Origin: a virus
Strand: one strand, 5' to 3'
DNA length: 25,140 nucleotides
IMG/VR virus record: IMGVR_UViG_3300008120_000280
Span: 1-25,140 of that record
The notes under the pieces are model-generated. The model did not search any database. It worked only from the letters and a program-made list of their open reading frames with translations, and was not told the DNA's origin. Position 1 is the first letter of the stretch, and each line of letters starts with the position of its first letter. Positions 1,069-18,723 of the stretch are shown here, one piece after another. The position numbers and the translations under genes are program-made.

Positions 1069-2375
1069 TGGCAATAGAACTAGAACTTCCAAGACCCCAT
1101 ACGAACCAACAGTTTTTGCTGGACAATCGTAAGCGGTTCAATGTTCTGAAGTGTGGACGGCGGTTTGGCAAGACCGAGCTATGCCAGGAACTTATAGCCG
1201 AATCGTTTGAGAATGGATGGTATACAGGATACTTCAGTCCAACTTATAAGGATCTTTACGAGGTTTGGCGCACCACGCTGAACAACTTCCATAACATCAT
1301 CACGCATAAATCAGAGACAGTCAAGCAGGTCGTTTTTCTTAACGGTGCCAAGGTTGACTTTTGGTCAATGGAAGAACCCAACTCAGGCCGAGGTCGCAAG
1401 TACCACCGGGTGCTAATCGATGAGTGCGAGAAGGCAGGTAAGTTCGAGGAAGCTTGGACCCAGGCGATTGCTCCGACTTTGACTGATTTCGGTGGTGATG
1501 CTTACTTCCTATCTACGCCTCAATTCGGACAGACCTACTTCAAGAAGCTCTGCAAGCAACAGGACCTAATGCCTGATAATTGGAAGACCTTTGTTTATTC
1601 TACCTATGACAATCCCCATATAGATCGCGATGAGATTGAGATGATGCGGACTATCTTACCGCCCCTGGTCTTTGAGTGCGAGTACATGGCAGCGGATGTG
1701 GATGGCAAGGCGGTCAATCCGTTCCTGTATGCTTTAAATCCTGATGTACACTTTGACAACTCGGTCAATATGGATTGGAAGAAGCAGCTGCATATCGGCA
1801 TCGACTTCAACTTAAATCCATTCGCGGTGGTGTTCGCCAATATTTGGAGGGATGAGGCAGGTCTGCACGTTAACTTCGTGAATGAGTTCAGCATCGACAA
1901 CGGATCTCTCCAATCCATGGCGCAGCGTATCAAGGCGATGTTTGGCAGCATCCTTCATAATGCAAAGCTTACAGGTGATGCGATGGGTAAGAATAGGAAC
2001 ATAGCTTTGGCGGATAATGCCAGCAACTACGAAACGCTTCGGAGGTTGCTAGGTATCAGGGATGCGCAGATGGTATTGCCTCCTAACCCCACGCATGAGG
2101 GGAGCCGTAACGACTTCAACTATTTGCTTCATATCGCCTCGGACCGCAGGAACCAGATTCATGTCAAGGTGAACCCGACCACCTGCCCAGGCTTGGCCCA
2201 CGATATGCGGATGGTCCAGTGCGATGCGGTGGGTAGCATCATCAAGGGCAATCGTAAGGACTTAAGCCAAAAAGCTGACTTCCTTGACTGTGCGCGTTAT
2301 ATTATTAATACATTTGTGAAAGCCGAGATTGAGCGGCACCAGAAAAGCAACTTCGGACAATTAAACTTCAAGTGA
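1068..2375 (+). CDS. terL: terminase large subunit
   Basis: A 435-aa packaging motor with an N-terminal ATPase and a C-terminal RNase H-like nuclease. The Walker A-type motif GRRFGKT is at residues 30-36, Walker B VLIDE at about 115-119, and the coupling motif FLSTPQFG near 147-154. Nuclease acidic residues are D246 in HIGIDFN, D304 in LTGDAMG, and D404/D407 in KADFLDCARY. Length and motif order are normal for the family. The ATG at 1068 overlaps the final A of the upstream tRNA, so there is no room for an ordinary leader between them. The stop overlaps the next gene start (TGATG). It acts with the small terminase and portal to fill procapsids. Confidence 0.95.
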   Translation: MAIELELPRPHTNQQFLLDNRKRFNVLKCGRRFGKTELCQELIAESFENGWYTGYFSPTYKDLYEVWRTTLNNFHNIITHKSETVKQVVFLNGAKVDFWSMEEPNSGRGRKYHRVLIDECEKAGKFEEAWTQAIAPTLTDFGGDAYFLSTPQFGQTYFKKLCKQQDLMPDNWKTFVYSTYDNPHIDRDEIEMMRTILPPLVFECEYMAADVDGKAVNPFLYALNPDVHFDNSVNMDWKKQLHIGIDFNLNPFAVVFANIWRDEAGLHVNFVNEFSIDNGSLQSMAQRIKAMFGSILHNAKLTGDAMGKNRNIALADNASNYETLRRLLGIRDAQMVLPPNPTHEGSRNDFNYLLHIASDRRNQIHVKVNPTTCPGLAHDMRMVQCDAVGSIIKGNRKDLSQKADFLDCARYIINTFVKAEIERHQKSNFGQLNFK

Positions 2376-2776
2376 TGTACTGTAAAGACTGCATAAAAGT
2401 GAACCCATTGCCACGATGCGTAGAGCCAGGACAAGAGATAATTCTGACCGGTATCAACTTTCCAAACGATGTCAGCACTACGCTTTATGCCATACTTTGG
2501 GACATATCCAACAATCGGCAGACACTATTCACCATAACCGTTGATGGAAGTGGTGACATCATCGAAACGGATGGGGTGGCTTCGACAGGGCTGAACCTGA
2601 CCGATGCTTACGATCTGATGGGCCATAGCTACGAGCTTGAGTTCACTACTCTTGACCTGCAATCGGTCAGCGTTACCATCGATGGGCAGACAGGCTGCTG
2701 TGCTAAATTCACGACCTTGAAGCCATTGGTTGGAGCTGGCGAGATTGCTTTGTCAACAGGTGGCTGCAATGATTGA
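2375..2776 (+). CDS. unknown Cys-containing beta-rich protein
   Basis: A 133-aa protein I do not recognise. It opens with a cysteine cluster (MYCKDCIKVNPLPRC), continues with alternating hydrophobic/polar segments typical of a beta-sandwich, and has a CC pair near the C-terminus (QTGCCAKFTTLKP). The start is ATG at 2375 in the TGATG overlap with the large terminase; a GTG one codon upstream is less likely. An Ig-like or virion-decorating role is possible by fold impression only. It is certainly co-transcribed with the terminase. Confidence 0.6.
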   Translation: MYCKDCIKVNPLPRCVEPGQEIILTGINFPNDVSTTLYAILWDISNNRQTLFTITVDGSGDIIETDGVASTGLNLTDAYDLMGHSYELEFTTLDLQSVSVTIDGQTGCCAKFTTLKPLVGAGEIALSTGGCND

Positions 2777-3107
2777 GATACTGGCAGGCATCATCGCTTC
2801 GAGCTGCATCAGCTTGGGCGTTTACGTTTCGGCACAGTTCAACAACTTCGAGGCTTTCGATGACAGCCCTGAGATACTCCGAAAAGAGCGTATCGATGGG
2901 GCTATGATACTTTGGTGGGTTAGGTGGTATGGTAGCTACCTGCCTTACTTGATGAGAAAACCCCTGTACTTTTGCCTACCTTGCATGGGGTCTATTTGGT
3001 CGGTTCCTGCTCTTTTGTATCTATCTTTGCCCTGGTACTATTGGCCATTCTTTATGCTCGGCACTTGTGGGCTTAACGGATTTGTAAAGTACAATTTCAA
3101 CACATGA
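2769..3107 (+). CDS. putative small membrane protein with CxxC motif
   Basis: A 112-aa protein with an N-terminal hydrophobic segment (MIEILAGIIASSCISLGVYV) and a long aromatic hydrophobic region after residue 60 that includes CLPCMGSIW, so probably two or three membrane segments. The CxxC motif at a membrane boundary recalls DUF1360-type small membrane proteins. I chose ATG at 2769, which gives an 8-nt overlap with the previous gene, instead of an in-frame start at 2730 that would overlap by 47 nt. A holin-like function cannot be excluded, but no lysin is adjacent. Confidence 0.6.
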   Translation: MIEILAGIIASSCISLGVYVSAQFNNFEAFDDSPEILRKERIDGAMILWWVRWYGSYLPYLMRKPLYFCLPCMGSIWSVPALLYLSLPWYYWPFFMLGTCGLNGFVKYNFNT

Positions 3108-3292
3108 AGAAGCACTACCACCGCGTTCATGGTTACCATTATATCATGCGCGGCGGCGAGTGGTATGTTTTGATTGGGGGCAAGTGGCATAAGTGCGCCC
3201 CACCAACCCAGCGTTACCCATTACTTATAAATGATGATATTCAAGAAGAAACAACCCGACCTGAAGCAGATCTGGAAGGACCACCGCGATGA
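3104..3292 (+). CDS. hypothetical 62-aa protein
   Basis: Begins at the ATGA overlap with the membrane-protein gene, the coupling used throughout this operon. The N-terminal 40 residues are rich in His, Tyr and Trp and contain two similar short strands (GGEWYVLIGGKWHKC), possibly a small beta-hairpin domain. The last 20 codons overlap the next gene in another frame. I do not recognise the family; the coupling argues that it is translated. Confidence 0.5.
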   Translation: MKKHYHRVHGYHYIMRGGEWYVLIGGKWHKCAPPTQRYPLLINDDIQEETTRPEADLEGPPR

Positions 3293-3920
3293 GCTGTTAA
3301 AGCTCTATGCGGCCGAGGTTCCGCAAGGTGATAAGGTCAGTATGGACAAGGCTTTGGTGGATTTGGATGGTAAGGTTTACTATCGGTTCACCGGGTCAAG
3401 CACCATCATCCCATTGGAACGGATGGGCAAGATGCAGGACTTCCTCACGATGATGAGCGCGGGTCTAGATGAGAAGGAACTAACCGCCTTGATTGATGTT
3501 GCCAATGGCGAGTTGGCTATGGCATTGGCTGGCAAGAAGGCTGATGTGGTCAAGATCGGTGCGGTTCTTAACCAGATCAAGGAGCGGCAACAGATGATAC
3601 TGCATGACCAACTGATGTGGCAATTCATGGCGGTTCAGTTGGTTCGTGAAGATGAGCCACCTGCCAGGTTTATCCAAAAGATTCACGATGAAAAGGTTGA
3701 AGCGTTGCAGCAGCTGTACTATCAGCACCCTGATTACGCTTTTTTTCAGACTCCCGAATTGAGGCTTCTAAACGAGTTGTTAAAGTGTTCACCACAAGAT
3801 TGGGAAACATTATTGGTCAGCTCGATTCGGGAGAGAGACCGCCTAAAGAAGATGCTTTCATACTTGCGTGGCGCGAAAGGATCCGCGAGCGACAAGAAGA
3901 CCACCGTACCCATGTCATGA
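3231..3920 (+). CDS. putative tail assembly chaperone (short form)
   Basis: A 229-aa mostly helical, charged protein lying two reading frames before the tape measure, the position held by lambda gpG-type tail assembly chaperones. These proteins coat the tape measure during tail assembly and are absent from the virion. Its 3' portion overlaps a second open frame in the -1 register. At codons 171-172 it crosses T TTT TTT followed by a stable stem (separate entry), so part of the product is probably diverted into a 275-aa fusion. Two adjacent ATG codons (3231, 3234) could serve as the start. I do not recognise the sequence family; role is inferred from position and the frameshift architecture. 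Confidence 0.65.
   Translation: MMIFKKKQPDLKQIWKDHRDELLKLYAAEVPQGDKVSMDKALVDLDGKVYYRFTGSSTIIPLERMGKMQDFLTMMSAGLDEKELTALIDVANGELAMALAGKKADVVKIGAVLNQIKERQQMILHDQLMWQFMAVQLVREDEPPARFIQKIHDEKVEALQQLYYQHPDYAFFQTPELRLLNELLKCSPQDWETLLVSSIRERDRLKKMLSYLRGAKGSASDKKTTVPMS
3740..3833 (+). promoter_or_regulatory. programmed -1 ribosomal frameshift element
   Basis: The heptamer T TTT TTT (3740-3746) lies in the correct phase for a -1 slip relative to the 229-aa frame (codons GCT TTT TTT CAG). After a 4-nt spacer, CTCCCGAATTGAG (3751-3763) pairs with CTCGATTCGGGAG (3821-3833): 13 bp with one T.G wobble, closing a 57-nt loop. The -1 frame has its last upstream stop at 3731-3733 and is then open through 4057. 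Slippery site, spacer, stem and open frame all agree with a gpG/gpGT-type frameshift. The spacer is slightly short and the loop long, so a pseudoknot or nested helix may be involved. Confidence 0.75.
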
Positions 3921-4057
3921 TGTTGGTGGAGGGTGATGTCAGGAACTACGAGGCTATGATGTCTGCTAGTTGCGAGACTTACCTGATTGCTATGGAGGCT
4001 TATGTCAAGAAGGTTTTATTGAGCCGACCCAAGGAAAAGTCACCCATTAAACGCTGA
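3746..4057 (+). CDS. tail chaperone frameshift extension (gpT-like)
   Basis: An open segment in the -1 frame of the 229-aa gene, ending 18 nt before the tape measure ATG. If reached by the -1 slip, it adds 103 residues to the first 172 of the upstream protein, giving a 275-aa fusion. No ATG lies in the overlapped part; a GTG occurs at 3785. An alternative start is ATG at 3917, which overlaps the upstream stop as ATGA and would make a separate 46-aa protein (MMLVEGDVRNYEAMM...). Both routes may operate. In gpGT-type pairs the extension binds the tape measure. Sequence family not recognised; the role rests on architecture. Confidence 0.65.
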   Translation, partial: SDSRIEASKRVVKVFTTRLGNIIGQLDSGERPPKEDAFILAWRERIRERQEDHRTHVMMLVEGDVRNYEAMMSASCETYLIAMEAYVKKVLLSRPKEKSPIKR

Positions 4058-4075
4058 ATTTCTTAACTTTGGAAC

Positions 4076-7000
4076 ATGGCAACAGAAGACATACTCATAC
4101 GGTACCGGGCTGATGTTAGCCAGCTCGAAGGTGATATAAACAAGGTTATCCAAAGTCAGGAGGAACTGACTGCGGCAACCAAGGCCAATACCCAAGAGCA
4201 ACAGAAGTCTGTTAGTGCTGCCGAGTTTGCTGCCAAGAAGCGCGTTCAGTTACTTGACCAGGAAAAGAAGACAATCAATGAGCTTAAGGATGCGCAGAAG
4301 AAAGCTTTCAATGGTGAGGAAGTATCCAAGTTCAATGCCCAGATAGCGCAGAGTGAGAAACGAGTTCAGGCATTGGGTGGCAGTTATAGACAGGCTGCAG
4401 ATAATGTTCAAAATAGCAATCAACAGATATTAGGTGGCATCAATAAGATTGGTGCTGCTTTTGGTATAGCATTTACTGCCGAGGCACTTATACAGTTTGC
4501 ACAGCAGGCGGTTGGTGCGTTTTTAGAAGCTGAAGAGCAGGCAGCCAAGTTAAGGTTTGCCGTTACAAGTATTGGTGGTGAAGGTGAAGAGGCATTGGCT
4601 CGATTGACCAAGCAGGCGGAAGACCTTGCTGCCGTTACTTTCTTTGGTGATGATGATATCACCGCTGCACAGGCTGCGTTGAGTGCATTCGGTTTGACTG
4701 CCGATCAGATTGAAGGCATTATTCCGAAGCTTGCCGACTTTGCTGCCGTTACTGGTGGAACGGTTACAGATGCTGCCAATACTTTGGGTGGTGCTTTGGA
4801 AGGTAGGGCTGGTGAGTTCAAGCGATTTGGAATTGAAGTAGATGCTGCCAGTACCAAGGCTGAGAATCTTGCACAGGTTAGCGCAGGTTTGGCTAAGCAG
4901 GCAGGAGCGGCTGGCAATGCTTTGAATACCGCAGCAGGTAAAGCCAAGGATTTTAAGGATCAGGCAGGAGAGTTTGTAGAGGCAATAGGTCAAGGGATAG
5001 TTATAGGCACTCAAAAGATAGGCGAGTTTTTACAGGTTGTCTTTGATGTTTACAAAGAGGCTTTAGCTCCTTTGATTGATGCTGTTATAAGGCTTAAAAA
5101 TGTATTGGTTAGCTTTATTCCTGATGCTGTAATAACCAAGATAAAAGAGTTTTTTACAAATACCGCATCCTTAAAGACTGTTTTAGAAACTGCAGCTCTT
5201 CCATTAAAGACTCTTGTCAATATTTTAGCTACCTGGTATAATGGTCTTTTAAAAGCCGTTGCCGGTGTATCAGGTTTAGTCAGTGCAATTCGTGTAGGCT
5301 TCAATGAAATAGGTCAGACTGTTACCAATGTAGGTGGGGGCATTGCTGATGTGATAAATGGAATAGCAGACTTTGACCCTGCCAAGATTAAGGCTGGATT
5401 GGGCAAGGTTAAGGGAGCATTTACTCAGGCAGGTTCGGATATTGCCAATGCTTTCAATGAAGGTTATAACAAGACCTTAAAGATTGCTGAAGGTGCCGAA
5501 GAGCAGGTGGAAAAGACTACTAAGGTTGTCGAGGCTGCCAGTGAAAAGATATTCAAGTCCGATGAGCTGCGCAAGAAGTCAACCAAGGAGTTGAATGCTG
5601 AATTGGAAAAGCAAAGTAAGATCCAGAGCAATGCGGCTCGGCAGAATGTCGAATCCATCAACAAGGAATTGGAGGCTCGTAAGAAGCAAGGGGATGCAGC
5701 CAAGAAGGCTGGAGATGATGCAGCCAAGGCAGCCGAACAGTTTAAGAAGCTTATTGAAGGTATCGATGGCGAGATTACAAAGCTTCAGGCTGACCTTGAG
5801 CGCAGGAAGATTGAGATAATCCCTGCTGATTCGCAGAAGGCCCAGGAAGACCGCATCAAGGCTTTGGCTGATCTGAATGAGAAGGCTATTAGTGATGAGA
5901 TAGCTGCCAAAGTTAAGTTGGTTCAGGATGATGCGAACCTAAGCGAGGCGCAGAAGAACCAAGCCATAGCCAAGTATGAAGAACTCAAGGCGGCACGATT
6001 GGCATTGGCTCAGTTCAACGAGCAGAATGAACTGAATATAATCAGTGCGCAGCAGGTCGCAAGGATAGAGGCAGCTTTCAAGAAGATTGACGATTTGAAT
6101 GTAGAGCAGGCTTTGGTAATTGAAGCTGATAAGGTCGAGGCGGCTAACGAGGCGGTGGCTAAAAGCTTTGAAGACTTAAGCAATGCGATTAGCAAGAGTG
6201 ATTTGGAATCCGCTAAGGAGGTTGCAACGGCAAGGACTCAACAGTTAAATAATGCTTTAAGAAGTGAAGAAGAACAAAAAAAGATTCAGATAGATAATGC
6301 TTTTCAAACTGCCAAAGCACAAATAAAAGCAGGAGATGGAGCTGCTGCCGAACTTGAAGCTATCACACAAGATAAAACCAATAAGATTGCCAATCTTGAA
6401 AAGGAAACCAAAGAAAAGATAGCTAAAAATGATGCGGAGTTAAATAATCAAATAATAACCAATACTGAGCGATCAACAGAAGCACGTATTGCCCAGACCT
6501 TTGAGATATTGGATGCCACGAAACAGTTGTTTAGTGAGCTTTCTGCCATATACGACCAATTCAGTGAGCAGCGTATTGGTCAAATCGAAGCCGAAAGGGA
6601 TGCACAATTGGAATCCATTGATGCCCAGATTGAGCAGAACGCTGAATATTTGGAGAATAGAAGGATTAGCGAAGAGGAAGCGGCAGCCAATGAAAAGGCT
6701 TTGCAAGAAGAAAAGGTTAGGATTGAAGCGGCTGCACAGAAGAAGATTCGTGAAGAAAAACGCAAGCAGGCTATATTGGATAAGGCTGCCGCAGCATTTG
6801 AAATCGGTTTGGCTACAGCCGTTGCGATTGTGGCTGCTCAAAAACAACCACCACCATTGAACGCGATTTTAACGGCTATTATCGCCACTACTTCTGCGCT
6901 TCAATTGGCAGCGGTTGCAGCCCAACCTATCCCATACCGCAAAGGTTCCAAGAATACCGGAAGCAATGAGCATTTGGCGCGAGTGGGTGAGGAAGGTGAG

Positions 7001-7339
7001 GAATTGGTCTGGATGCCTGCAAATAGCAAGGTATTGCCAGCTCGACAAACCAAGAAGTATTCCGATGTCATCGATGCGATGTATGACAATAAGCTTGATG
7101 ATTACGTTTATAAGAACTACATTACCCCTGCTTTGATGGCTCAGAAGGAGGCGAAGGAGAACCAACGCGCCAAGAGTTTCGCCGAGAATATGGCTAGCTC
7201 GATTGTCTATAATCAGGCAGGCTTAACCCCATCCGATCTGGAGGCACAGCGCAAGAGGGGTCAATATATCAGGAACGTGGATGAGATAGCCGATGCAATT
7301 GCCAAGAAGCTACCCATTAGAGACATATACCGCGCATGA
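4076..7339 (+). CDS. tail tape measure protein
   Basis: A 1087-aa protein, the longest gene here. It has long helical, Lys/Glu/Ala/Gln-rich stretches (about residues 20-115 and 490-900) broken by hydrophobic segments near 117-150 and 905-950. The C-terminal motif ARVGEEGEELVWMPANSK (about 966-983) matches the conserved GE.G.E....P..S...P ending of tape measures. The protein sets tail length; at about 0.15 nm per residue a fully extended copy would span roughly 160 nm, an estimate only. It follows the chaperone pair directly and overlaps the next gene by ATGA. Regions about 4970-5320 and 6235-6475 look more AT-rich than their surroundings. Confidence 0.93.
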   Translation: MATEDILIRYRADVSQLEGDINKVIQSQEELTAATKANTQEQQKSVSAAEFAAKKRVQLLDQEKKTINELKDAQKKAFNGEEVSKFNAQIAQSEKRVQALGGSYRQAADNVQNSNQQILGGINKIGAAFGIAFTAEALIQFAQQAVGAFLEAEEQAAKLRFAVTSIGGEGEEALARLTKQAEDLAAVTFFGDDDITAAQAALSAFGLTADQIEGIIPKLADFAAVTGGTVTDAANTLGGALEGRAGEFKRFGIEVDAASTKAENLAQVSAGLAKQAGAAGNALNTAAGKAKDFKDQAGEFVEAIGQGIVIGTQKIGEFLQVVFDVYKEALAPLIDAVIRLKNVLVSFIPDAVITKIKEFFTNTASLKTVLETAALPLKTLVNILATWYNGLLKAVAGVSGLVSAIRVGFNEIGQTVTNVGGGIADVINGIADFDPAKIKAGLGKVKGAFTQAGSDIANAFNEGYNKTLKIAEGAEEQVEKTTKVVEAASEKIFKSDELRKKSTKELNAELEKQSKIQSNAARQNVESINKELEARKKQGDAAKKAGDDAAKAAEQFKKLIEGIDGEITKLQADLERRKIEIIPADSQKAQEDRIKALADLNEKAISDEIAAKVKLVQDDANLSEAQKNQAIAKYEELKAARLALAQFNEQNELNIISAQQVARIEAAFKKIDDLNVEQALVIEADKVEAANEAVAKSFEDLSNAISKSDLESAKEVATARTQQLNNALRSEEEQKKIQIDNAFQTAKAQIKAGDGAAAELEAITQDKTNKIANLEKETKEKIAKNDAELNNQIITNTERSTEARIAQTFEILDATKQLFSELSAIYDQFSEQRIGQIEAERDAQLESIDAQIEQNAEYLENRRISEEEAAANEKALQEEKVRIEAAAQKKIREEKRKQAILDKAAAAFEIGLATAVAIVAAQKQPPPLNAILTAIIATTSALQLAAVAAQPIPYRKGSKNTGSNEHLARVGEEGEELVWMPANSKVLPARQTKKYSDVIDAMYDNKLDDYVYKNYITPALMAQKEAKENQRAKSFAENMASSIVYNQAGLTPSDLEAQRKRGQYIRNVDEIADAIAKKLPIRDIYRA

Positions 7340-14899: not shown

Positions 14900-17113
14900 A
14901 TGACCAGAGGCATCTTGCTGATGGCGTGGGGAAAAAGGGGCTATGGTTTCATGGCCCACAACCTCGCGGTTTCCATTAAGCATCACAGCCCTGGCATACC
15001 CATCCACCTTATAGCTACCGAGAAGGTTCTGAAGGAGGTCACTGACCGCTCTATGTTTGACAGCATCGAGTTGTTGGATGGCGATCCTTCAGATCCCGGT
15101 AGGTATAAAGCGGATATTTACGAACTGACCCCATTCGACTCCACTTTGTTCTTGGATGTCGATGGCATTTGTTTGAGACCTGTCGAGGAGATGTTCGATA
15201 GGTTGGATGCTTCGGGCGCATATTATGCGACCTTCATCAACGAGGTTTACGATGTAAATAGTCCTAATATCCTACCACAGATGTGGTGGGCTTATAGGCA
15301 AGACATTTGGGACCATTGCTGTTTCGACCATGAGACCAAGTTCCCAGCCACTCAAAGCTCGATTCAATACATAAGGAAGTGCGATAAGACTGCTGAGATG
15401 TATAGCATCTTCAAGGCTGAGATGGACAGTCCGATACCTTTGGAGAGGCTTAGGAATAAGTGGGGCGGTGGCCAGCCTGATGAACTATATCTGAACATTG
15501 CACTGGCTAGGATGGGGGAATGGCATCACATTGGTGAGGCTTCGATGTACTTCGGAAACACTTCAGCCAAGCGACCCCATGAGATTGCAGAGGTTTACAC
15601 TTTTTTAAGTTTGTTCGGCAACCGTTCCAACATCAAGCCGATGTATTGGGAATACTACGACCGCATTCTGATGAAGATTCAGTCGGGTCGAGGTCAACGG
15701 CATAATTTCAAAGGTCATATATTACGAAGCGACAAGATTGCCAACATAAGTTCGCCCAAGACCAAGGTAGTACCTCCGACCATTGCCAAGATTGGCGATA
15801 ACAATCGGACTAAGCTTCCTGGTAAGGTGGCTTTATTTACAAGCTACTTTGAGCAGCAGTATGGCGATAGGCAGCGTGAACTGAGGCAGGCGATGAACCT
15901 GAACTGCGACTGTCCCAGCATTGATGTGATTTATAATCTTGGCAAGAGTTGGGAACATCCGAAGGTGATAAATGTCGAAGGTTATGACCGCCCAACTTAC
16001 ACAGATTTTATCAAAGAGATGCAAGCGGTCGAGGCGGATTGGTACATTTTAGCCAATACCGATATTTACTTTACCACCGAAATCGAAGACATCAAATCGC
16101 TTCAGATGGAGGGTAAGGTACTTTGCCTAAGTCGTTGGGATGTGCTTCATAACGGCAACAGCAAGCTATTCGATTATGAATGGACCCAAGACACTTGGAT
16201 ATGGAAAGGCAAGCCCACAACGCTTAAAAATGTGGATTTCACTATGGGTCTGCCTGCCTGTGATAACCGCTTGGCTTATGAGATTGCTCAGGTGGGACTA
16301 AAGCCGATAAATCCAAGCAAGGATATCAAGACCTATCATCTTCATCTAACCAATAAACGAAGCTACAAGGAGCGCGACAGATTGCCTGGCGCGACCTTGC
16401 CAGTTCCACCGACCAAGGCTGATTTATACAAAAAGAAGAGGTTACTTATTAAGCAGCCGGGTAAAGTGGGTGACTTATTGATAGTTCTACCTATTGCCAA
16501 TTGGTACAGTGAGCGTGGATTTGATGTATTTTGGCATTGTCCAAAGCAGTACCATTCCTTGCTGGCTTATGCCGATTATGTCCAGCCTGTCGAATCCGAC
16601 CGAGGCAATTACGATAGGGTGATTGATTTGAGTTTCGGATTGGACCAAAAAAGTCCAATTCACTACCGATGGATCAAGGACCGAAGGAATGTGGACAGCT
16701 TTGTCACCTACAAATACCGATTGGCAGGAGTGCCGCTGACTGAATTGAGAAACCTTAAATACAAGCGAAATGAAATATCTGAAATGGCCCTTTGTGATGC
16801 TTTGGGAATTGATAGTAGTAGGCCTTACCATGTCGTTCACAGTAGTAGTGACTATGGGAGTCCTGCTGATATTCTGGTTTCAGACAATGTGGTCCGCTTT
16901 GAAAAGGTGGGCGATTTCACAATTTTTGATTGGCGGAAAGTCCTAGAAGGGGCTGCTTCCATCCATTGCATAGATTCAAGCCTGGCAAACTTTGTGGATG
17001 CAATCGATACCAATGCCGAGCTTCACTACTATATAACCGATAAGGTTCCGCAACAATCGGACCGAACCATACTGACTAAAAACTGGCAGCAATATGATAT
17101 GGCACGAGTTTGA
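14900..17113 (+). CDS. three-domain glycosyltransferase fusion
   Basis: A 737-aa protein made of three apparent sugar-transfer units. Residues 1-280 are GT-A-like, with LFLDVDG carrying a DxD metal/nucleotide-sugar motif at 86-88 and a GGGQPDELYLN segment (189-199) as in GT8-like enzymes. Residues about 308-490 form a second domain with ANTDIYF (385-391), DTWIW and GLPACDNRLAY, a pattern found in phage- and Bacteroidota-encoded glycosyltransferase-like proteins. Residues about 513-715 look like a GT-B/GT9 heptosyltransferase: IKQPGKVGDLLIVLPIA (517-532) and HCIDSSLANFVDA (689-701). Together with the next genes it would build or decorate a glycan, on virion proteins or on the host surface. Donor and acceptor are unknown. 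Confidence 0.75.
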   Translation: MTRGILLMAWGKRGYGFMAHNLAVSIKHHSPGIPIHLIATEKVLKEVTDRSMFDSIELLDGDPSDPGRYKADIYELTPFDSTLFLDVDGICLRPVEEMFDRLDASGAYYATFINEVYDVNSPNILPQMWWAYRQDIWDHCCFDHETKFPATQSSIQYIRKCDKTAEMYSIFKAEMDSPIPLERLRNKWGGGQPDELYLNIALARMGEWHHIGEASMYFGNTSAKRPHEIAEVYTFLSLFGNRSNIKPMYWEYYDRILMKIQSGRGQRHNFKGHILRSDKIANISSPKTKVVPPTIAKIGDNNRTKLPGKVALFTSYFEQQYGDRQRELRQAMNLNCDCPSIDVIYNLGKSWEHPKVINVEGYDRPTYTDFIKEMQAVEADWYILANTDIYFTTEIEDIKSLQMEGKVLCLSRWDVLHNGNSKLFDYEWTQDTWIWKGKPTTLKNVDFTMGLPACDNRLAYEIAQVGLKPINPSKDIKTYHLHLTNKRSYKERDRLPGATLPVPPTKADLYKKKRLLIKQPGKVGDLLIVLPIANWYSERGFDVFWHCPKQYHSLLAYADYVQPVESDRGNYDRVIDLSFGLDQKSPIHYRWIKDRRNVDSFVTYKYRLAGVPLTELRNLKYKRNEISEMALCDALGIDSSRPYHVVHSSSDYGSPADILVSDNVVRFEKVGDFTIFDWRKVLEGAASIHCIDSSLANFVDAIDTNAELHYYITDKVPQQSDRTILTKNWQQYDMARV

Positions 17114-17324
17114 CATTACTCTAAGCGATAAGAAGCTTGATGAGATGGGAATTGACAAGTTCACGGAAAGCAAGGCTATGGTTGCTCTAGACAATGTTTA
17201 TTCATTCCACAAGTCTTATAATGAATCGAGCGATGAGGTTACTTTCATCATGTTTATGAATGGTGACACTATGCAGGTCAATTGCTCCTATGAAACCATG
17301 AAAAAAATAATGCGATGCAGATAG
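17094..17324 (+). CDS. hypothetical protein in sugar cassette
   Basis: A 76-aa protein starting within the last 20 nt of the glycosyltransferase fusion and ending 10 nt into the methyltransferase gene. It is a compact, Met- and charge-rich sequence with no motif I recognise. Overlap on both sides makes translation likely. It might be a partner of the neighbouring enzymes; there is no direct evidence. Confidence 0.5.
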   Translation: MIWHEFDITLSDKKLDEMGIDKFTESKAMVALDNVYSFHKSYNESSDEVTFIMFMNGDTMQVNCSYETMKKIMRCR

Positions 17325-17953
17325 CCCAGCACCTGATGCCAAACGGCATGGGAGCGCATAACGACTTCAGAGATGCCATCACCGAACTTATCAAAACCAA
17401 GAAGCTTGAAAGAATTATTGAAACGGGCAGCTATCTTGGCGAAGGAACTACCCAAGGCATTGCTAATGCTTTGGTGGGAGATGAGCAAGTCTATTCTATC
17501 GAAGTTAACCCACGCCACTATGAAGCTGCAAGGAAAAGGCATCGTAATTCGATTATCACTTTCCTGCTTGGTCTATCTGTTAAGCGTTCTGATATTCCCA
17601 CTGATATTAGTTTCGATGTTCCTGATGATATCGTTATTGACCATCTTGACCATAACAGGGACATTCTCTATAGACAAGAAGTGAGCTTCAAGGTGCCAGA
17701 TGAGATGCTTCATTTCGCCTTGGCTAAATTGGACTTTCAACCTGATCTGGTTATCTTGGACAGTGCCGGTCACATGGGATTGATAGAGTTCAAGTATTTA
17801 ATGGAAAGGGTAGAACCTGGCTTTTATTTGGCTTTGGATGATACCAACCATGTCAAGCATTACCATACTTGCGAGAGTCTCAAGACAGTCGATTGCGAAC
17901 TGATATGGCAGACTGAACAGGGCTTTGGTAGCCGAATCTATTACATCAAATGA
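17315..17953 (+). CDS. SAM-dependent methyltransferase
   Basis: A 212-aa class I methyltransferase. Motif I is IETGSYLGEGT (35-45), the glycine-rich SAM loop. The acidic residue after strand 2 is E63 in VYSIEVNP. The strand-4 motif is DLVILDSAGH (144-153), followed by YLALDDTNHVKHYH (171-184), whose DD and His residues recall metal-assisted sugar methyltransferases of the methyltransferase-24 type. Placement between glycosyltransferases points to a sugar or glycan substrate rather than DNA, and no DNA-methyltransferase motif (DPPY) is present. The stop overlaps the next gene as ATGA. Confidence 0.75.
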   Translation: MQIAQHLMPNGMGAHNDFRDAITELIKTKKLERIIETGSYLGEGTTQGIANALVGDEQVYSIEVNPRHYEAARKRHRNSIITFLLGLSVKRSDIPTDISFDVPDDIVIDHLDHNRDILYRQEVSFKVPDEMLHFALAKLDFQPDLVILDSAGHMGLIEFKYLMERVEPGFYLALDDTNHVKHYHTCESLKTVDCELIWQTEQGFGSRIYYIK

Positions 17954-18723
17954 GATACGCCTTAACAATAGTTTACAACGCCAAGCATCATCTGCTTAAC
18001 AACGGCTTTGCTGAAAAGATGGTTCAGATGTTTGACAAGTGGGTGATAATCGAAGGCTTCAGCAGAAACGGTGGTTCTACAGAGTGGTGTACAAGCATCA
18101 GACCGCCACATCAGTCTACGGATGGCACTATCGAGACTTGTCAAGATTTGGCAAGTCAATATCCGACCAAAGTCATATTCCATACATCGGCTCAAGGTTA
18201 TGCTTCCAAGGATGACCAAGTAAACAAAGGAATTGAACTACTGCAAGGCAATCCCGATGGATGGCTTTGGCAGGTCGATTCCGATGAACAGTGGACTGAA
18301 CAGGACTTGACCGAGGCTGAAAGTATGCTTGAAATAGGCTCGAATGTAGCTGGAGGCTTTCAGTTTTATCATTATCTTTGCAAGGATAGTGATGGCAAGC
18401 AGTTGGTGGGGAAAGGATCTTGGGGCGATAACATCGTAGCGCGATTGTGGTGGTGGCATGGTCAGAAGTTCAAGACCCATGAACCTGCAATCATGCACGG
18501 ACAGGATGGCATCAAGTTCCTACCGCAGAAATTTCATCATTACTCTTATGTATTCGAGCAAGATGTGGAATTCAAAAGCAAGTATTACAAAGGCTACAGA
18601 CCAGTGCTATCTAATTGGAGAATGCTCCAACAGAAGCGGTTCAATTACCCTATACCTGCCAAGACATTGCTCGGAAGCGGCACATCGGTTGACCTCACTA
18701 ACTCTTATATAACTACGCTATGA
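17950..18723 (+). CDS. GT-A glycosyltransferase (GT2-like)
   Basis: A 257-aa protein with a GT-A layout: N-terminal strand MRYALTIVYNAKHH, EGFSRNGGSTEW (35-46), and QVDSDEQW (108-115) containing a DxD-type DSD motif for the nucleotide-sugar metal. The His/Trp-rich middle (LWWWHGQKFKTHEP) may form the acceptor site. It is coupled on both sides by ATGA overlaps and belongs to the same cassette as the three-domain fusion and the methyltransferase. The specific sugar is unknown. Confidence 0.68.
   Translation: MRYALTIVYNAKHHLLNNGFAEKMVQMFDKWVIIEGFSRNGGSTEWCTSIRPPHQSTDGTIETCQDLASQYPTKVIFHTSAQGYASKDDQVNKGIELLQGNPDGWLWQVDSDEQWTEQDLTEAESMLEIGSNVAGGFQFYHYLCKDSDGKQLVGKGSWGDNIVARLWWWHGQKFKTHEPAIMHGQDGIKFLPQKFHHYSYVFEQDVEFKSKYYKGYRPVLSNWRMLQQKRFNYPIPAKTLLGSGTSVDLTNSYITTL

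Follow-up and report, generated by a model that had tools for sequence, protein, structure and literature searches.

The tail assembly chaperones gpG and gpGT of phage lambda are a described case of -1 frameshifted products (Xu, Hendrix and Duda 2004, as cited in PMC5009743), and certain cases in tailed phages are said to lack stimulatory signals (PMC5009743). Two other kinds of site are relevant for comparison. In the cassettes of E. coli dnaX and of IS elements, an in-phase X XXY YYZ heptamer is followed by a short spacer and a 3' stem. Transcriptional slippage, on the other hand, occurs at runs of at least 9 A or T, as in Thermus dnaX, the Shigella type III secretion genes and Citrobacter tssM1 (PMC5009743, PMC4256274). 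Here we compare with these systems a locus in the IMG/VR virus record IMGVR_UViG_3300008120_000280 (positions 1-25,140; this whole stretch of 25,140 nucleotides is called the window). As in lambda, two overlapping frames lie directly before the tape measure gene, the -1 slip falls near the end of G and the T extension is in the -1 frame; unlike lambda, the window has a U7 site, a strong downstream stem and no similarity in the family libraries. It shares the in-phase heptamer, the short spacer and the 3' stem with the dnaX and IS cassettes but differs from them by its homopolymeric U7, the 57 nt between the stem arms and the lack, by eye, of an upstream Shine-Dalgarno-like stimulator. Sites of transcriptional slippage are matched in length by the T9 of distant relatives described below, whereas the window itself has only T7, with a stem downstream. 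Judged by sequence comparison, the locus is a real and conserved programmed frameshift of a known kind, carried by an undescribed phage family.

The 0-frame ORF, located at 3231-3920 on the plus strand as are the other parts of this locus, encodes a G-like protein of 229 aa, a probable tail assembly chaperone that is conserved in relatives. Within this ORF the 0 frame reads GCT TTT TTT CAG, which places the slippery heptamer T TTT TTT in phase at 3740-3746. It is followed by a 4-nt spacer (3747-3750) and by a 13-bp stem with its 5' arm at 3751-3763 and its 3' arm at 3821-3833. The -1 frame, which encodes a T-like domain, has a TGA just upstream (3731-3733), is open from 3734 to 4057, beyond the stop of the 0 frame, and closes 18 nt short of the ATG at 4076 of an ORF encoding a probable tape measure protein of 1087 aa (4076-7339). 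Both frames are used over 3747-3920 and, at the end of this overlap, a -1-frame ATG overlaps the 0-frame stop (ATGA, 3917-3920), where reinitiation could give a product of 46 aa. The predicted products are 229 aa without a slip and a 275-aa fusion (172 + 103) after a -1 slip. A preliminary description of the same DNA had reported these elements: every coordinate of the heptamer, spacer and stem arms was verified in the sequence, the extent of the -1 frame from its last stop to 18 nt before the tape measure ORF was confirmed, and a recheck of the ORFs returned the same two protein lengths and the ATGA at 3917.

The order of the genes (terminase, small genes, the G/GT pair and a long tape-measure-like ORF) corresponds to that around lambda G/GT. 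The pair lies directly upstream of the tape measure ORF, whose identity is itself deduced from length, gene order and a weak phrog_991 match, and the second frame overlaps the first, can be reached by a shift and is conserved, with the slippery sequence in phase. The 1087-aa ORF matched phrog_26705, of unknown function (E 2.9e-14), and the tape measure family phrog_991 at an E-value of only 0.067. Neither the G nor the T product gave anything meaningful in Pfam, NCBIfam or PHROGs. Isolate phages searched with DNA and protein of both frames gave no match, the G proteins of the more distant clades B, C and D gave none either, and no prophages were found in the genome collection. AlphaFold models of the two frames (pLDDT 45 and 59) were too poor for a fold search. 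Gene order and frameshift architecture thus fit the tail chaperone identity given in the preliminary description and suggest that the pair encodes such proteins, although the family libraries returned no sequence match to known chaperones. Since family models do not recognise this phage family, the T product is likely missed in annotation.

Close relatives of the window were 14 IMG/VR contigs retrieved with the G protein, one of which (L007) ends soon 3' of the site. Thirteen of them carry T7, the exception being L010, and the open -1 frame together with a stem of 10-13 bp was found in every related contig examined. Aligned with those of the window, the G proteins show 73-94% identity and the -1 products 61-97%, the -1 product of L010 having 68%. 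Of the 0-frame codons, a fraction of 0.465 differs synonymously 5' of the site, against 0.205 within the overlap and 0.085 in its first ten codons. This drop, which begins at the T7, is on the codon comparison the mark of two overlapping coding frames. A test on doubly synonymous sites in the overlap had no power, with only two such sites. In recodings that preserve the 0-frame protein with phage codon usage, 0.17% of cases kept the -1 frame free of stops across the 59 codons. The frameshift reading of the preliminary description is borne out by these comparisons: the two frames, slip site and stem are maintained in relatives with as little as 61% identity in the -1 product, and the synonymous drop starts exactly at the slip site.

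The stem comprises 12 Watson-Crick pairs and one G-U pair around a loop of 57 nt, and no second inverted repeat of 10 nt or longer (arms within 150 nt) was reported in 2300-4500. Among 3000 recodings preserving the 0-frame protein, one produced a stem at least 13 bp long that began 3-9 nt 3' of the run, and in a comparison with 300 recodings the observed stem beat all 300 in the window and in L012, and 293 of 300 in L010. Across the 13 pairs, 95.5% of the cells of alignment A3 are paired, compared with 17-56% once the arms are slid, and variable columns are fewer in the stem core (4/22) than in the rest of the overlap (81/143; Fisher p 0.001). For the RNA at 3747-3850 the folding energy is -31.3 kcal/mol, with z -2.9 relative to dinucleotide shuffles; other segments along the gene reach z -3.3, making the folding energy alone unexceptional. 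The argument for the stem is carried by its position and conservation, not by folding energy. The preliminary description had proposed looking in related phages for a conserved U7, spacer and stem with compensatory changes. The run and the stem are indeed kept; the spacer, 4 nt in the window, varies from 4 to 6 nt in relatives, and no compensatory changes were found. In alignment A3 two-sided covariation is absent from the stem, eight of the 13 pairs being invariant and four varying on one side, for example U-A to U-G. On this alignment the stem is conserved, not proved by covariation, and dual coding of conserved protein motifs probably contributes to its invariance. The spacer usually quoted is 5-9 nt, a typical rather than a strictly defining value, and the natural range is wider (PMC5009743).

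The locus very probably works through a -1 shift of ribosomes at the U7, upstream of the stem, in the manner of lambda G/GT. Ribosomes translating the G-like gene would arrive at GCU UUU UUU, where a fraction of them would slip back one base on the U7, aided by the 13-bp stem 4 nt downstream. The slipped ribosomes would then read the -1 frame to 4057 and produce the 275-aa G-T fusion alongside the 229-aa G protein. By analogy with lambda gpG and gpGT, the many copies of G would associate with the tape measure protein, and the few copies of GT would bring in the tail tube protein. From these elements and from the lambda precedent we infer the ribosome as the agent of the slip, its frequency and the chaperone function of the products. 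Several observations count against the ribosomal reading. In E. coli, slipping is weak on U_UUU_UUU relative to A_AAA_AAG (PMC5009743), the stem has no two-sided covariation, and two contigs of a more distant clade (L061 and L130) have T7 without a stem. In addition, L010 lacks the heptamer: its site reads AGC CTT TTT ACC, two T-to-C changes having destroyed the heptamer (C CTT TTT A), and is followed by a 10-bp stem. The preliminary description had regarded loss of the heptamer in a close relative with both frames intact as evidence against frameshifting, and this is what one of the 14 relatives displays, with the stem intact as well. In L010, tRNA-Phe may still be able to slip from UUU to UUU in the P site.

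The alternative that survives best is transcriptional slippage, in which an extra U inserted by RNA polymerase at the T run gives mRNAs with U8 that are read normally into the -1 frame. Slippage of the bacterial enzyme on 9 consecutive A or T is known (PMC5009743), and the homologous place in distant lineages carries a T run of exactly nine, in two codon phases and without a stem. The window and its near relatives, in contrast, have only T7 (T5 in L010), short of the homopolymer of about 9 A or T expected of such a site, and their conserved downstream stem is able to act on ribosomes and not on a polymerase located at the T run. The ribosome is favoured because a stem 3' of the T run cannot yet exist in the nascent RNA while the run is being transcribed. 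For the window we therefore consider polymerase slippage improbable.

The more distant phages were found by terminase profile and G-protein searches. Every distant phage with a G gene carries a T run at the homologous FF position, even where G identity to the window is down to 15-26%. Seven more distant lineages keep the run, and six of them (one in part) have exactly T9 without a stem: clade B (T9 in L062 and L129, T7 in L061 and L130), clade C (L064-L067, L069, L070 and L109-L115), clade D (L068, L118, L121, L123 and L131-L136), clade E (L116, L117 and L122), clade F (L127) and clade G (L128). The seventh lineage, H, consists of L125 and L126, which are identical over the site (2387-2480) and have T TTT TTC followed at a short distance by an 11-bp stem. 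The arms of this stem, GCCTTGCCTTT and AGAGGTAAGGC, are separated by 66 nt; the geometry is that of the window and the sequence is different. In a profile comparison of clades A and C the T domains gave nothing significant and the G domains a probability of 74%. In L128 (IMGVR_UViG_3300033148_004524, 2423-3521), a single 4.5-kb contig, the -1 frame runs past the T9 without a stop into a tape-measure-like protein, and a shift there would give a G-T-tape measure fusion.

The T9 starts at codon position 3 in most contigs and at position 1 in L127 and L129. Because T9 occurs in two codon phases, it is seemingly the length of nine that is kept and not one codon context. At 13 representative T9 loci there is no other T run of at least 8 on that strand. 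None of the T9 sites tested has a stem clearly above the recoded background, whereas the window clade and H exceed it. Strong stems occur only where the T run is seven or shorter; the exception among the short runs is L061 and L130, with T7 and no stem. Counted by lineage, a stem is present in two of three short-run cases and in none of six T9 cases, so that the apparent link between a short T run and a stem is suggestive and not significant. The contrast among relatives between T7 with a stem and T9 without one is new here and was unexpected. The survey suggests that homopolymer length is traded against RNA structure at one homologous site. In the T9 lineages polymerase slippage is a serious candidate because the bacterial polymerase slips on 9 A or T; the ribosome is also possible there, U9 containing an in-phase heptamer. 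We tentatively propose, while considering it rather less probable than its converse, that the phage group has two exchangeable means for the G-to-T step, namely, in most lineages, a T9 on which RNA polymerase slips and, in the window clade and separately in L125 and L126, a shorter U run with a stem on which ribosomes slip. If true, frameshifting at a homologous site would have switched in evolution between the transcriptional and the translational mode. The choice between ribosome and polymerase slippage becomes directly testable with a few reporters.

A different route to the downstream frame would be a separate short gene, with termination and reinitiation at the ATGA at 3917 giving a 46-aa protein and no fusion. 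The overlap of a -1 ATG with the 0-frame stop is found in all 13 close sequences examined (as ATGA, TGATG or TAATG), even though the stop has shifted by one codon among them, and clade B also has TAATG. Clades C and D, in contrast, have no ATG at the 0-frame stop, the synonymous drop starts at the T7 and not at 3917, and the ATGA cannot be the sole route because 58 conserved -1 codons precede it. We therefore regard a separate gene in place of the fusion as very unlikely. The preliminary description had offered the ATGA as a second way into the downstream frame; the overlap is kept in every close relative, as this would predict, but it cannot explain the 58 upstream codons. A second product of 46 aa made by reinitiation in addition to the fusion is possible on the sequence, as is translational coupling at 3917-3920. 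Two internal starts for the -1 frame, GTG at 3785 and TTG at 3800, were rejected, being absent in several relatives, which means that the conserved -1 codons upstream of the ATG need a shift.

Finally, although homopolymers are error prone, a single ORF broken by a miscounted T run (an assembly error or pseudogene) can be set aside with near certainty: T7 occurs in contigs from many metagenomes, both frames are conserved across the overlap, a T run is in place in all lineages, and the window count is not the error of one assembly because two contigs of separate metagenome records, L002 and L007, match the window at 100% over the site.

Three other features of the record were observed. A few bases before the tape measure start, at 4064-4078 (TAACTTTGGAACATG), lies a TAnnTTTG motif, with similar ones in several relatives; it resembles the -7 promoter element of Bacteroidota, and a Bacteroidota host and a very short leader would fit. 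Between the tail and portal genes (14900-18723) are three ORFs of 737, 212 and 257 aa that by eye are of sugar-transferase or methyltransferase type, the 737-aa ORF having no Pfam or PHROG match. The record starts with a run of 17 A (positions 1-17), and a near relative (L046) has A18 at 4933.
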